Of a stretch of DNA of 64,000 nucleotides, positions 42,515-48,340 are shown in pieces (positions within the stretch are counted from its first letter, which is position 1; every line of letters starts with the position of its first letter). A program made the translations under genes and the position numbers. The stretch is taken from the NCBI GenBank assembly GCA_905181615.1, contig CAJIYH010000005.1, forward strand, positions 1 through 64,000. The letters are read 5' to 3'. Source of the stretch: an uncultured Flavobacteriaceae bacterium. GTDB taxonomy: Bacteria; Bacteroidota; Bacteroidia; Flavobacteriales; Flavobacteriaceae. The notes under the pieces are model-generated. The model searched no databases and had not been told where the DNA came from. It saw only the letters and a list, made by a program, of their open reading frames with translations.

Positions 42515-43165
42515 ATGAATGCATTTATATTCGATCTAGACGGAGTGATTGTCGATACAGCCAAGTACCACTTCATTGCATGGAAAACGATAGCAGAAAC
42601 CTTTAATTATAATCTTACAGAGAGTCAGAATGAAAACCTAAAAGGGGTTAGTAGGTCAGATTCATTAGATTTGCTGCTTCAGTGGGGTAAAAAAGTTCTG
42701 ATACAAGAAAAAAAAAACATGCTGTTAAACCAAAAGAACAAGCATTATCTGCAACTGATTCAAGAAATGGGATCGGAAGAAATCCTTCCAGGAGTATTGA
42801 ATATCTTAGATTTTACAAAAAATAATAATGTGCCTGTTGCTCTAGGGTCTGCTAGTAAAAATGCCCAGTTAATTTTAGGAAAATTAAACCTTACTCCCTA
42901 CTTTAGTAGCATTGTAGACGGAACTCATGTTAGGCATTCAAAACCCAATCCTGAGGTTTTTTTATTAGGTGCCAAAAACCTAAACACCCCTGCCAAATCA
43001 TGTGTTGTTTTCGAAGATGCAAGCGCAGGTGTTGCTGCAGCCAAAACAGCTGGAATGACCGCTATTGGTATAGGTAATCCTGAAGAACTTAAGGCAGCAG
43101 ATTATGTTTTCGAATCGCTTGAACAAATAAACATTTCCCTACTCAATAAACTAGCAGCTATTTAA
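42515..43165 (+). CDS. pgmB: Beta-phosphoglucomutase
   Basis: A 216-residue HAD-superfamily enzyme that converts beta-glucose 1-phosphate to glucose 6-phosphate. FIFDLDGVIVDTAKYHFIAWK carries the nucleophile Asp8 and acid/base Asp10 plus the cap-domain hinge. LKGVSRSDSLDLLL is the pgmB-type phosphate clamp region, VALGSASKNA is motif II with Ser, KPNPEVFLLGAK is motif III with Lys, and VVFEDASAGVAAAKTAGM is motif IV. All catalytic elements are present and the length is normal. The stop shares one base with the next start (TAATG), so it is coupled to the GH65 phosphorylase, which produces its substrate. TATATTTG at 42478-42485 is a likely -7 box. Confidence 0.93.
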   Translation: MNAFIFDLDGVIVDTAKYHFIAWKTIAETFNYNLTESQNENLKGVSRSDSLDLLLQWGKKVLIQEKKNMLLNQKNKHYLQLIQEMGSEEILPGVLNILDFTKNNNVPVALGSASKNAQLILGKLNLTPYFSSIVDGTHVRHSKPNPEVFLLGAKNLNTPAKSCVVFEDASAGVAAAKTAGMTAIGIGNPEELKAADYVFESLEQINISLLNKLAAI

Positions 43166-45471
43166 TGAACGCATCTCACTACCATCAAAATCCTTGGAAA
43201 ATAATAGAACAAGGATGGAACCCTGAAAATGTTAAATCTTCCGAGAGTATATTCAGCATTGGAAATGGCGCTATGGGTCAGCGTGCAAATTTTGAAGAAG
43301 ATTATTCTGGACCTAGCTTTCAAGGAAGTTACATTGGGGGAGTTTATTATCCGGATAAGACTAGAGTTGGTTGGTGGAAAAATGGGTATCCCGAATATTT
43401 TGCTAAAGTATTAAACGCACCCAATTGGATAGGAATTCATGTAAAAGTAAATGGTCAAAATTTAGACCTGAATTTATGTAAAGAAGTTACTGAATATGAA
43501 CGCGAGCTTAATATGCAAGAAGGAACTTACACAAGAACTTTTAAGTGTAAACTTCAAGACGAAACTAGGATTCATGTCAAAAGCTTACGATTTCTTTCTT
43601 TAGATCAAATAAATCTAGGTGCAATCCACTATACTGTAACTGCAATTAGCGGAGAAACAAAGCTTGATCTAATCCCTTATCTTGATGCAGGAATAACAAA
43701 TCAGGACAGCAACTGGGAAGATCAATTTTGGGAAATTGACCAGGTTTCAACAAAAGAAAGCAAAGCTTTTATTCATTCACACACCCTCAAAACAGATTTT
43801 CATGTGTGTACCTTTATGGATACAGAATTTTGGGCTGGTGAGACGCAGATAAAACGGAAGGAAAAGCCTCAAAGAGAAATCAATAAAACTACTTTAAATT
43901 ATAGCCATCATCTATCTGAAGGAGATAGTGTTACGTTGATTAAATATGGAGGTTATATTACCGATCGTAAGCACCCAAAAGCTGAATTAAATAAACTAGC
44001 AGATACTGAGCTTCAAAAGGCAAGCAAACTCGGTTTCGACAGGCTTCTTCATAATCATAAAGCAGAATGGGCAAAAATTTGGGAACGGGCCGATATTAGG
44101 ATTGGCGGTGATGTAAAAGCCCAACAAGCAATTCGGTTTAACATTTTTCAGCTGAATCAAACGTATACTGGTGCTGATGCAGGCCTAAATATTGGCCCTA
44201 AAGGCTTTACAGGAGAAAAATACGGTGGGAGTACCTACTGGGACACAGAGGCGTACTGCATCCCATTTTATATGGCTACCAAAAAGCAAGAGGTAGCCCG
44301 AAATCTGTTGGCATATCGTTATCATCAAGTTGATCGTGCCATTGAAAATGCTGCTAAACTTGGATTTACTTCTGGAGCTGCGCTTTATCCAATGGTCACT
44401 ATGAATGGGGAAGAATGCCATAACGAATGGGAAATTACTTTCGAGGAAATTCACAGAAACGGAGCAATTGCATTTGCAATTTTTAATTATGAACGCTATA
44501 CGGCTGATGCTTCTTATATACCGGAAATGGGCCTCGAAGTGCTTATCGGGATTAGTCGATTTTGGGCACAGCGCTTCAATTTTTCGGAAGACAAAAATTC
44601 CTATGTTATGCTCGGAGTAACTGGGCCTAATGAATATGAAAATAATGTAAACAACAACTGGTACACTAACTATATTGCCAAATGGTGTTTGGAATATACA
44701 GCCGAGCAAGTTGAAAAAACTAAGGAGAAATCCCCTGAAAATTTTAAACGCATTGCGGAGAAGACAAAAATAAACCTTGAGGAAGTTCGTGAATGGAATG
44801 TTATATCAAAAAATGTATATTTCCCATACAACGAAGAAAAACAAGTGTTTTTGCAGCAAGACGGATTCTTAGACAAACAGCTGCTTCCTGTTTCTAGTCT
44901 TGATTCTTCTGAACGCCCCATTAATCAAAATTGGTCTTGGGATCGAATTTTACGATCTCCATATATTAAACAAGCTGATGTTTTACAAGGGTTTTACTTT
45001 TTTGAAAATCATTTTGATCTCGAGACTCTTAAGCGTAACTATAACTTTTATGAGCCGTTAACCGTTCACGAATCTTCATTATCTCCTTGCGTACATTCTA
45101 TTTTAGCATCTAGGCTTGGAAAAGAAGACCAAGCATACGAATTTTATTTACGAACAGCACGCTTAGATTTAGATGATTATAACACTGAAATTGAAGAAGG
45201 ACTTCATATTACGAGTATGGCTGGAACCTGGATGAGTATTGTCGAAGGTTTTGCTGGGATGCGTATTCAAAACGACCAGCTTTGTTTTCGCCCAAGGTTG
45301 CCAAAGGCATGGAACGAAATAGAGTTTAGGATAAATTTCAGAAACGTCATCTTATCTGTTACAATTTCCCAGAAAAACATATCTTTTTCTACAAATTCTA
45401 ATGCGAGCTTGAGCTTGTTTGTCTATGACAAGGAGATTCAAATAAAAGGGGAAACCAGTGTCGCGTTATAA
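43165..45471 (+). CDS. GH65 disaccharide phosphorylase (maltose phosphorylase-like)
   Basis: A 768-residue GH65 enzyme that splits an alpha-glucoside with phosphate to give beta-glucose 1-phosphate. The N-terminal beta-sandwich domain begins ESIFSIGNGAMGQRANFEED. The (alpha/alpha)6 barrel has YWDTEAYCIPFYMATKKQEV, MNGEECHNEWEITFEEIHRN and VTGPNEYENNVNNNWYTNY; the Glu in G-P-N-E-Y-E is the general acid. FDLETLKRNYNFYEPLTVHE and SSLSPCVHS form the phosphate-site region. A small C-terminal domain completes it. The E-C-H-N-E-W segment favours maltose phosphorylase over kojibiose or trehalose phosphorylase, but specificity needs assay. It is coupled to pgmB, and the MFS transporter converges from the right with 9 bases between stops. 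Confidence 0.9.
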   Translation: MNASHYHQNPWKIIEQGWNPENVKSSESIFSIGNGAMGQRANFEEDYSGPSFQGSYIGGVYYPDKTRVGWWKNGYPEYFAKVLNAPNWIGIHVKVNGQNLDLNLCKEVTEYERELNMQEGTYTRTFKCKLQDETRIHVKSLRFLSLDQINLGAIHYTVTAISGETKLDLIPYLDAGITNQDSNWEDQFWEIDQVSTKESKAFIHSHTLKTDFHVCTFMDTEFWAGETQIKRKEKPQREINKTTLNYSHHLSEGDSVTLIKYGGYITDRKHPKAELNKLADTELQKASKLGFDRLLHNHKAEWAKIWERADIRIGGDVKAQQAIRFNIFQLNQTYTGADAGLNIGPKGFTGEKYGGSTYWDTEAYCIPFYMATKKQEVARNLLAYRYHQVDRAIENAAKLGFTSGAALYPMVTMNGEECHNEWEITFEEIHRNGAIAFAIFNYERYTADASYIPEMGLEVLIGISRFWAQRFNFSEDKNSYVMLGVTGPNEYENNVNNNWYTNYIAKWCLEYTAEQVEKTKEKSPENFKRIAEKTKINLEEVREWNVISKNVYFPYNEEKQVFLQQDGFLDKQLLPVSSLDSSERPINQNWSWDRILRSPYIKQADVLQGFYFFENHFDLETLKRNYNFYEPLTVHESSLSPCVHSILASRLGKEDQAYEFYLRTARLDLDDYNTEIEEGLHITSMAGTWMSIVEGFAGMRIQNDQLCFRPRLPKAWNEIEFRINFRNVILSVTISQKNISFSTNSNASLSLFVYDKEIQIKGETSVAL

Positions 45472-45480
45472 AGGATTCTT

Positions 45481-46749
45481 TTATTCTTTATTATGCGTTA
45501 CTAATTTCGAAAATCGAATCGCGGCGAATAATCCTAAGACAGAAAAAACTGACAACATCATAAATACCTGCTGATGACCAACAATTCCTGGCGAACGATC
45601 CAGTAAGTACCCCATTACGGGTCCAACAAAGATATCTGGAGTGTATCCAATAACGGATATCAAACCAATGGCTGTTCCTGTAATTGCTAGAGGTATTTTA
45701 CCTTCTTGTAAAACCGCAAAGTAAAGTGTACGAATGGAATAAACCCCTGTTGCTGTAATAGTTAGTGACAAGAAAAACAAGAAGTTTAAATCTGATTGAA
45801 CTACACCAGAAGCAAAAATTAAGGAACCTAAAAGCATCACTATAAAGCCTATAATGATCCACAGAGAACCTTTTGTTTTGTCTGCCATAATACCAATTGC
45901 AACCCCTAAAATCGGTCTAATATAGAGTTGAAAAGTTCCGATTTGAGCCGCTTTTATTTCATCGAATAGCATAATCTCCTTAGCGTATAAAGAGAATATT
46001 CCGGTTAATTTATATCCAACATAAGCAGAAAGCACAATAAACATTAACCACCAAACCGAGGGTATTTTTAAAACTTTTTTGATGTTTACAAGGGAAGAAT
46101 CAAGGCTTTTTACTGGCATATTTGTTTCTTCGGGATCTTCCATGAAAAAGAAAACTAAAAGACCAACGGAGATAGCCAGTGAGGTCGCAAAAAGAATTAC
46201 ATATCGAAAAGCATCTTGACGCTCGACAAGTGAGGCGTTAGCAAGATTTTCGGGTAATATCATTGAAAAAATATAAACCCCAATAGCGCTTATGGAAGCT
46301 GCAACAAAACCTCTTCCACCTTCTAAGAACCCAAAAGCCTTTCCTTGTTTTGAAGTTCCACCCCAGACTCGGGTAGCTTTGATCATTGCTCCCCAAAATA
46401 AAAAAATTGTAGTGAACCCCCAATATCCATAAACAACCTTTAATACTTGAATAGAAGGAAAAGTAGAAAGAACAACACCGCCAAAGGCAGTTAAAAGCAA
46501 AGAGGCTGCAATAAGTTTTCTGGGAGAATATTTATCTGCAATAGCCCCTCCATATAGATAAGATAAAAGTGCTATAATTCCGTAAATCGACAAACAAGTA
46601 CCCAGCTCAAGATTATTAAGAGTAAAAACATCTAAATAGGTAGGTCTAAAAATCCTCGGTAAAACAAAGGGAAGTATAAAAGCAGATTCCCCTGCTAATA
46701 TTAGAAGTATAATTTGATGAATTGAAGCATTAGATTTTAGAGTCTGCAT
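45481..46749 (-). CDS. MFS transporter, probable sugar or glycoside importer
   Basis: A 422-residue 12-helix major facilitator. The loop 2-3 motif is GGAIADKYSPRKLIAAS (G-x-x-A-D-x-x-x-x-R-K), repeated at the midpoint as GIMADKTKGSLWI. It opens AGESAFILPFVLPRIFRPTY and contains FWGAMIKATRVWGGTSKQGKAFGFLEGGRG, a region typical of the flavobacterial sugar-phosphate/glycerol-3-phosphate-like and YihN-like MFS subgroup. Its convergent position against the pgmB-GH65 unit suggests import of the disaccharide to be phosphorolysed. It does not share a transcript with those genes. The substrate is inferred from context only. Confidence 0.8.
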   Translation of the reverse strand: MQTLKSNASIHQIILLILAGESAFILPFVLPRIFRPTYLDVFTLNNLELGTCLSIYGIIALLSYLYGGAIADKYSPRKLIAASLLLTAFGGVVLSTFPSIQVLKVVYGYWGFTTIFLFWGAMIKATRVWGGTSKQGKAFGFLEGGRGFVAASISAIGVYIFSMILPENLANASLVERQDAFRYVILFATSLAISVGLLVFFFMEDPEETNMPVKSLDSSLVNIKKVLKIPSVWWLMFIVLSAYVGYKLTGIFSLYAKEIMLFDEIKAAQIGTFQLYIRPILGVAIGIMADKTKGSLWIIIGFIVMLLGSLIFASGVVQSDLNFLFFLSLTITATGVYSIRTLYFAVLQEGKIPLAITGTAIGLISVIGYTPDIFVGPVMGYLLDRSPGIVGHQQVFMMLSVFSVLGLFAAIRFSKLVTHNKE

Positions 46750-46786: not shown

Positions 46787-48340
46787 TTAATCGCATGAAT
46801 ATTTTGCAACAACAAGCCCATCTGATTTACGAATCTCTAAAATCCTATTAAATCCTCGAAGATGAAAATACCCAAAATCAGACCCATCTAACATTGTTGA
46901 AGGATAAGAGTATCTATTATTGTATATCATATAATTCCCAACCTGAGGCTCTAAAATAGTGCCGTCGTGATATGCTTGGTTATAGTTGTTATAAGAAACG
47001 TCATCACATAAAAAGCTTTCTGAAGCAACAACTATTGAGCCTGAAACCGTTGAAGTTTTATATATATTACTCAAGTAAATCGGACCTGTTTTTGGGGGAT
47101 TAAAATTCACAACGTTATTAAATTGAACTGACGAGGCTACATTGCTTGCTACATCAAAAACGATTCCAGCAGAAGGTAAGATTGTTAGGACTTCTTTTCC
47201 TGTAATTGGTAGTCCATTCATTGGAAGAAGTAGATCAAACACATTATCTCCATAATTAGCTATAGAAGTTGGGTTAACAGAGTTTAAGTCTGCTGCACTT
47301 CCGTTTTGAACTAGACTTAGTGTAAAGTCAGAATTAAGAAGAGGATTACCGGCTGCATCAGTAAAAATATCCTCATTAAAAACAACACGAACCTTGGTGT
47401 TGTCATCAGTGATTGAAGAACTAACTATATAAGGATCTAACTTATCATTTAAATATACCTGATTAAGTCCATTTACTTGGGTAACTGCAGATACTCCTTC
47501 ACAACTAAAAACAGAAGCTGGAGCTGTAATGGGATTAATTGTAACTAATTCGTCTCCATTTGGAACTCCATTTAAAGCTATTGTAATTTGATATTTGAGT
47601 TTTGAAGCACTGTTATCCATGGGTGTTCCGTCATCCCAATACCATCCGCCTGAAGGTTCGCTATAGTCGGCGGCTCCTGTATATTGGCGTAAGCCAATCC
47701 AAGTATTTGATACTTTAGTATTTTGATTATTAAACATATATTCAAATTCTTCTTGCGAATTATAAACCAGCAAATCAGCTCCTATACCTAAAGCAATTCC
47801 GGCATTGGTGGCATCAGCTTTTGAGTCTGACCAAGATTTTGCAGTATTTGCCTTGTAGTAAGAATGCGCGCATTCAGAACCTAAGGGCCAAGAAGCAAAC
47901 CATGTATAGCCAGGAATTACTTGGGCTATTGGATTAATTACTTCTAATATACCATTTAAATTATTAAAATTCGACAAATCATTTAACTGGCCATCACTTC
48001 TATGTTGAGCATAATTTTCGTTACCCGCATTATTTGGCTCACCTGGGCCCCACCTGGAGGTAAAATCATAATTACCTAATCTTGTAATTGTTATTGGAGT
48101 ATTTGAATTAAGCGTGGCACTTCCTCCGGTTATACTAAGACCAAAATCAGATATTTCAATACAGGTAAGGGTACTACAAGATGAATTTGAATAGATATCT
48201 TCATCAAAAGTAAGATCAATTTTAAGGTTATTATTATCAATGCTAGTAGCGGTGACGCTTGAAAATTGAGCTTGAACATTAATCCCTGACACAATAATTA
48301 TCAGAAAAAGAATTAAAGGTAAGCAGTTGCTTTTACGCAT
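46787..48340 (-). CDS. Exported Ig-like/C-type-lectin protein with swapped lectin halves
   Basis: A 517-residue exported protein (signal LILFLIIIVSGINVQAQ). Two SbsA-type Ig domains are recognisable: Ig2 at 303-412 (NTKVRVVFNEDIFTDAAGN), and Ig1 split into 27-90 (NNLKIDLTFDEDIYSNS) and about 244-300 (YQITIALNGVPNGDELVTIN). Between the two parts of Ig1 lies a C-type lectin domain in the wrong order. First comes the usual C-terminal half (WGPGEPNNAGNENYAQ, LNDLS, residues 91-135). The usual N-terminal half follows (WSDSKADA, ADLLVYNSQEEFEYMF, TWIGLRQY, GGWYWDDGTPM, residues 155-243). The C-terminal 95 residues are an unassigned beta domain. The lectin probably binds glycan with the E-P-N triad. 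No type IX sorting domain is obvious. Confidence 0.75.
   Translation of the reverse strand: MRKSNCLPLILFLIIIVSGINVQAQFSSVTATSIDNNNLKIDLTFDEDIYSNSSCSTLTCIEISDFGLSITGGSATLNSNTPITITRLGNYDFTSRWGPGEPNNAGNENYAQHRSDGQLNDLSNFNNLNGILEVINPIAQVIPGYTWFASWPLGSECAHSYYKANTAKSWSDSKADATNAGIALGIGADLLVYNSQEEFEYMFNNQNTKVSNTWIGLRQYTGAADYSEPSGGWYWDDGTPMDNSASKLKYQITIALNGVPNGDELVTINPITAPASVFSCEGVSAVTQVNGLNQVYLNDKLDPYIVSSSITDDNTKVRVVFNEDIFTDAAGNPLLNSDFTLSLVQNGSAADLNSVNPTSIANYGDNVFDLLLPMNGLPITGKEVLTILPSAGIVFDVASNVASSVQFNNVVNFNPPKTGPIYLSNIYKTSTVSGSIVVASESFLCDDVSYNNYNQAYHDGTILEPQVGNYMIYNNRYSYPSTMLDGSDFGYFHLRGFNRILEIRKSDGLVVAKYSCD

Follow-up and report, generated by a model that had tools for sequence, protein, structure and literature searches.

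C-type lectin domains (CTLDs) are built in the order beta1-alpha1-alpha2-beta2-long loop-beta3-beta4-beta5, and EPN is their mannose-type motif. The closest described family is Lectin_C (PF00059), represented by mannose-binding protein C (PDB 1rdi), to which both halves of the domain described here are homologous, with EPN, EN and ND aligned. Here, however, the halves are reversed, the natural ends are joined, the new ends lie in the long loop, the whole is inserted in an Ig-like loop, and no column that is invariant or almost so in the module alignment (A4) holds a cysteine. Marine Bacteroidota also have CTLDs of standard order (L019, L066, L082 and L088). These belong to the same sequence family, and in them the GGWxWxDG hairpin is followed, after a few to about 12 residues, by NWxxxEPN. 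The host domain resembles the Ig-like domains of the S-layer proteins SbsB and SbsC (Z 11.0 each, 15-19% identity for the intact second domain, Ig2), in which we know of no lectin insert. Two families of Ca2+-dependent carbohydrate-binding modules, presumably CBM36 and CBM60, are reportedly related by circular permutation, according to the title of a study; their fold differs from that of the CTLD. Swaposin, the plant-specific insert, sits inside another enzyme. It is likewise a circular permutant (a permuted saposin), attributed to permutation by duplication in the accessible part of PMC3320104, but its helical fold and its organism are unrelated. Among the matches listed for circular permutation in the literature, most subscription papers and preprints being out of reach, no permuted CTLD was found, and a search for HYR domains with C-type lectins found no papers. 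The accessible parts of PMC4444583, PMC3779223, PMC7824862, PMC8206207, PMC9122927, PMC12667903 and PMC3320104 describe no permuted CTLD; what comes closest is the segment-swapped NC1 domain in a table of PMC3779223.

The window, a stretch of 64,000 nucleotides, comes from an uncultured Flavobacteriaceae bacterium. The lectin gene is the open reading frame at 46787-48340 on the minus strand; an NCBIfam search of its 517 aa product gave no credible match. Its features, in the order of the protein, are:

48269..48340, minus strand: putative signal peptide, residues ~1-24 with the cleavage point estimated, recognised by inspection (charged start, hydrophobic core, VQA-Q end)
48062..48271, minus strand: first part of the first Ig-like domain (Ig1), residues 24-93, from its profile match to Ig2 (37.5 bits alone)
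47930..48061, minus strand: C-half of the CTLD, first in order, residues 94-137, beta3-beta4-beta5, from the C-half profile match to 1rdi (1e-10)
48032..48040, minus strand: EPN motif E101-P102-N103, from conservation and alignment to EPN of mannose-binding protein C (MBP-C)
48017..48019, minus strand: E108, from conservation and alignment to E of EN in MBP-C
47978..47983, minus strand: N120-D121, WND-like motif, from conservation and alignment to WND of MBP-C
47606..47929, minus strand: N-half of the CTLD, second in order, residues 138-245, beta1-alpha1-alpha2-beta2 and start of the long loop, from Lectin_C and PDB profile matches
47438..47605, minus strand: second part of Ig1, residues 246-301, which continues the Ig2 alignment after removal of the insert
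47099..47437, minus strand: Ig2, intact, residues 302-414, from VIA-align matches to SbsB 4aq1 and SbsC 4uj6
46790..47098, minus strand: C-terminal region, residues 415-517, from matches to ~419-517 in other proteins of the genus

The C-terminal region of the window protein is without a Pfam or NCBIfam match. This stretch of ~100 aa was found on other proteins in 13 of the 18 other same-genus genomes, and matches were absent from the 41 genomes of other genera. It ends otherwise different, signal-peptide-bearing proteins of the genus, in which, where read, it is often preceded by a DxDxDG...CP..G...LNGCPW repeat; possibly it is a domain for sorting or anchoring that is specific to this lineage. 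A glycoside-phosphorylase-like gene and an MFS-type transporter gene (presumably GH65-like and MFS, as named by inspection) adjoin the lectin gene at 43165-46749 of the window. Only 4 of the 14 homologous loci show these neighbours again, namely L031-L033 and, for a fragment, L036 (flanks were limited, and some were cut by contig ends), so no functional link with them is claimed.

The insert is very probably a circularly permuted CTLD in an Ig loop with its Ca2+ site kept, and the exported protein most likely a Ca2+-dependent, glycan-binding surface protein. The natural ends of the CTLD (beta1 and beta5) would be joined via a short linker, the cut would fall in the long loop, after the W-x-W-D-G hairpin and before the EPN loop, and a single Ig-like loop would receive both new ends. 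The halves would refold as one CTLD with the predicted Ca2+ site retained; because of the permutation, the lectin would meet its host via the edge of the binding loop and not via the usual stem. Export would proceed via the signal peptide, the C-terminal region would display or release the protein, and glycans would be bound through Ca2+ held by E101, N103, E108, N120 and D121, as predicted.

Residues 94-137 (W..GEPNN...ENYAQH...LNDLS...GILEVI) form the C-terminal half in usual CTLDs and residues 138-245 (GYTWF...SYYKAN...SWSDSKADA...LLVYNSQEEFEYMF...TWIGLRQ...GGWYWDDGTP) the N-terminal half. Half-profiles place the C-half of the window at residues 95-136 and the N-half at residues 142-240 (ORF numbering less 5), with 5 residues between them. 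The preliminary description had read a C-half followed by an N-half, and both halves do match solved CTLDs by profile. A profile built from 11 C-halves finds MBP-C (1rdi) at 1e-10 and places GEPN, EN and ND opposite its GEPN, EN and WND. The profile of the whole module matches many solved CTLDs (DEC-205, PLA2R, DC-SIGN); the best stretch is the N-half in most of the 60 listed rows and the C-half in others, e.g. 1kmb and 4wqq. Among the matches listed, three rows of the tandem-CTLD mannose receptor 2 span both halves, which would fit the end of one CTLD followed by the start of the next. The Pfam Lectin_C profile scores 20.3 bits in the natural order, against a gathering cut-off of 22.6, and covers residues 187-245 (profile 16-67 of 107). 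The preliminary description held that exchanging the halves restores a normal lectin; on exchange in the window module, Lectin_C rises from 20.6 bits in the natural order to 32.1 bits, above the cut-off, and the match reaches profile 16-95 of 107. The same exchange raises the L058 module from 13.6 to 21.2 bits, still below the cut-off of 22.6, and the L067 module scores 33.5 bits in the exchanged order, the only one scored. Each segment is present once, the order is reversed and the natural ends are joined via a short linker, as in a circular permutant; the elements run beta3-beta4-beta5-beta1-alpha1-alpha2-beta2 and not in the standard CTLD order.

All 14 close homologues (L031-L044; 13 genomes) have the C-half ahead of the N-half and leave 4-5 residues between the profile matches; none has the standard order that would have contradicted the preliminary reading. 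Two of them, L031 and the longer protein L034, share a genome. Matches were found in 19 of the 60 genomes searched, the window's own included, and the lectin region was covered at E 4e-88 or better in 10 of the 18 same-genus genomes besides the window's; this search and the set of 14 homologues overlap in genomes, and their counts are not additive. The window stems from a 7-contig assembly and its relatives are mostly MAGs, which would favour an artefact of assembly or frame concealing a standard order. The order is identical, however, in 14 of 14 homologues from 13 genomes, among them one on the chromosome record NZ_OU342399.1 of Candidatus Arcticimaribacter forsetii, and the module recurs within other host domains of other families. 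According to the accessible part of PMC9122927, the A. forsetii genome is complete and was obtained from an isolate in culture that belongs to the NS5 marine group. Assembly error is rejected as the source of the permuted order because all close homologues share it in independent genomes, and an artefact has practically no probability left. In L038 (the same gene as L010/L030) a change of frame interrupts the second Ig-like domain, which may reflect a sequencing error or a pseudogene.

An AlphaFold2 model of residues 24-517 has a mean pLDDT of 78.6 and a pTM of 0.65. Most ten-residue blocks of the Ig-CTLD-Ig part lie at 83-98 and none is under 72; over most of the last ~100 residues the score is ~50 or less. 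The module alone (residues 88-244) is modelled as a single compact domain (pLDDT 89.0, pTM 0.86) with the elements beta3-beta4-beta5-beta1-beta1'-alpha1-alpha2-beta2. The strands of the C-half are YAQH, LNDL and LNGILEVI; the N-half consists of YTWFASW, HSYYKA, the helix WSDSKADATNAGIAL, a short strand, a further helix and the strand TWIGLRQ. The near-full model matches mainly Ig folds. Foldseek and VIA-align keep sequence order. Foldseek with the module gave no match at E <= 0.001 against the PDB (best 0.64) and no CTLD in the best 50 rows, and VIA-align against 999 PDB chains reached a maximum Z of 4.4, with ferredoxin-like and similar folds and no CTLD in the best 50 rows. A viral-library fold search of the module likewise had no CTLD in the best 50 rows. 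Such searches are limited for circular permutants, according to the accessible part of a preprint (PMC12667903). Structural support for the proposal that the two halves form one CTLD comes from the compact model and not from the order-dependent fold searches; a CTLD fold of the refolded halves is strongly suggested.

The searches without a CTLD in their best 50 rows would suit halves that are remnants of two tandem CTLDs without a proper domain, or that pair between chains as a domain-swapped dimer. Some relatives carry a C-N-C-N stretch in one host domain, in which the pairing is ambiguous, and collagen IV NC1 is a recorded segment-swapped case in the CTLD superfamily, as the accessible part of PMC3779223 has it. 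This reading is nevertheless improbable: a single C-N pair with 4-5 residues between the profile matches is present in 14 of 14 close homologues, each half conserves its residues of the core and the Ca2+ site and evolves under purifying selection, and in the AlphaFold2 model (pTM 0.86) a single chain packs together.

In the permuted CTLD the expected Ca2+-site residues E101, N103, E108, N120 and D121, which we take to be the Ca2+ ligands, are all invariant in 12 close homologues (alignment A2), as is P102. In the 28 rows of alignment A3, E101-P102-N103 and D121 are invariant, and E108 and N120 are at least 90% conserved. Both lectin halves are under purifying selection. Over 55 pairs of 11 sequences, pN/pS averages 0.40 in the C-half and 0.30 in the N-half, and the median dN/dS is 0.199 for the C-half (28 unsaturated pairs) and 0.107 for the N-half (25 unsaturated pairs); medians are from unsaturated pairs, synonymous sites being near saturation in this set, which comprised the window's gene and all homologous loci except L034, L038, L040 and L044 (10 of 14). 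One point against the permuted-CTLD reading is that, in other proteins, the C-halves of several modules are degenerate; EPN is degenerate in L047 (first module) and L133.

The insert probably binds Ca2+ and sugar, judging from these residues, and by the EPN rule its specificity would be of the mannose type. The likeliest role of the protein is that of a surface lectin or adhesin, with binding, surface display and orientation all presumed. The accessible part of PMC9122927 predicts that laminarin and alginate are used by the genus, and algal surface glycans are therefore plausible targets. It is rather unlikely that the permuted CTLD binds no sugar and serves as a structural spacer stabilised by Ca2+ or as a knob that binds protein. 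In its favour, the CTLD fold does not imply sugar binding (PMC4444583, accessible part), the permuted topology would hold the Ca2+ edge near the host domain, and EPN is degenerate in some relatives, e.g. the two named above; the invariance of all five expected site residues in the 12 close homologues argues against it.

The preliminary description also held that the lectin splits the first Ig domain and that the parts align to the second. Against an Ig2 model built from 13 rows, Ig1 scores 48.9 bits without the insert and 40.5 bits with it, and its parts alone score 37.5 and 12.3 bits. The parts in swapped order still reach 41.5 bits, so that the gain from the correct order is only modest; the best shuffle reached 11.4 bits (2000 shuffles, 1981 scored). 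In hhalign, insert-free Ig1 and Ig2 are collinear over 103 columns with a probability of 98.8%, and the split stands. By VIA-align, Ig2 matches S-layer SbsB 4aq1 (Z 11.0, rmsd 2.2, 89 aligned) and SbsC 4uj6 (Z 11.0, rmsd 2.9, 99 aligned). The joined Ig1 of the window and the excised Ig host of L046 were both without a Pfam match. The permuted CTLD in an Ig loop, as proposed at the outset, is supported by the order in 14 of 14 homologues, by the compact model and by restoration of the host on excision.

The permuted lectin is a recurring module rather than a single oddity. When a genome collection was scanned with a single conserved peptide, relatives proved to be encoded at 66 loci. By half-profiles, flanks and eye, the order is C-then-N in 40 and standard in 26; profiles gave 34 permuted and 18 standard, 6 with an N-C-N pattern were counted as permuted, and 8 were read as standard by eye. 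Because the query was itself permuted, 40/66 is not a natural frequency. In a sample of the phylum, 34 of 395 genomes had matches, the window's included, and none of the 29 loci from the other genomes had a profile-detected C-half before an N-half without an earlier N-half, L099, L102 and L108 showing an N-half alone by profile (not read by eye) and L106 an N-C-N pattern; permuted order is therefore uncommon in that sample.

The hosts of the permuted module are of several kinds. It stands in a different loop of a similar Ig-like domain in the giant proteins L045, L046 and L049, and also in L024 and L026. In Chitinophagaceae it lies in HYR domains at six loci, and excision restores HYR in L058, the one examined (47 bits, 8-81 of 81). 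DUF7507/DUF11 repeats carry it in L052, L055 and others; for one L052 module, excision restores DUF7507 at 53.2 bits (5-96 of 105). Cadherin-like/Big_9 regions host it in Flammeovirgaceae, in Marinoscillum, and in one Flavobacteriales and one Rhodothermaeota MAG, with scores of 19.8 and 20.0 bits after excision, both below the cut-off (L067 only). L053 and L056 carry it in a host of no recognised kind. In flanks of 16 loci and others, the module runs from near NWxxxEPN to near GGWxWxDGT; these limits drift somewhat (GGWI.VDGK closes it in L052 and L055), and standard-order relatives run straight through this boundary (DGSPLSYSNW in L066, DGTSLSYSNW in L082). Three permuted modules lie along DUF11-like repeats in L052 (ORF residues ~1154-1804), two of their C-halves seen by eye only. 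A viral or plasmid origin of the module has no support: the 21 pattern-matching stretches in viral contigs encode no relative, and none was found in phage records or plasmids.

According to the accessible part of PMC3320104, duplication models of permutation predict partly duplicated forms. In L022/L047, from one genome, one DUF11-like host contains a C-half, then an N-C pair with standard spacing, and last an N-half. The N-C-N profile pattern is also present in L050, L051, L054, L057 and L073; the leading C-half was recognised, by eye, in L022/L047 only. The pairing of halves in C-N-C-N stretches is ambiguous. Tandem duplication with loss of the outer halves, suggested in the preliminary description, fits these forms in relatives and is not proved by them. 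A tree was built from 68 domains (41 permuted, 27 standard), in which the six inner domains of C-N-C-N stretches are not independent rows, because their C-half is shared with permuted rows. Left out were 20 N-halves without a profile-detected partner; 10 of them are taken to be permuted, their C-half being divergent, and the other 10 to be standard (from flanks for 14 of the 20, from a flank elsewhere for one more, and by likeness for the rest). At least 3 order changes are required on the tree, against a mean of 21.4 with shuffled labels (0 of 500 as low); the starred branches force at least 2, and permuted rows form one clade in 0% of 200 bootstrap trees. One main origin of the permuted order would fit this tree, and the origin from a tandem pair is presumed. 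Tentatively, and with somewhat less than even confidence, the module may be regarded as a permuted-lectin cassette of the Bacteroidota that arose mainly once by cuts of a tandem CTLD pair at one and the same place in the long loop and was transplanted, with near-constant boundaries, into at least four kinds of host (SbsC-like Ig, HYR, DUF7507/DUF11, cadherin-like) at at least five sites; its Ca2+ edge would lie at the host loop, so that lectin and host might together make up a composite site for binding.

Profile searches of fixed order detect only half of a permuted CTLD. The module also marks likely surface lectins of NS5 marine flavobacteria (PMC9122927, accessible part) that annotation partly misses. 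One module recurring across host domains, together with C-N-C-N forms and relatives of standard order, offers a case in which permutation by duplication and the reason for turning a binding domain round both become directly testable. The window's own genome encodes two giant multi-domain proteins with further permuted modules, L026 and L133; in the module of L133, EPN is degenerate and the C-half was recognised by eye.
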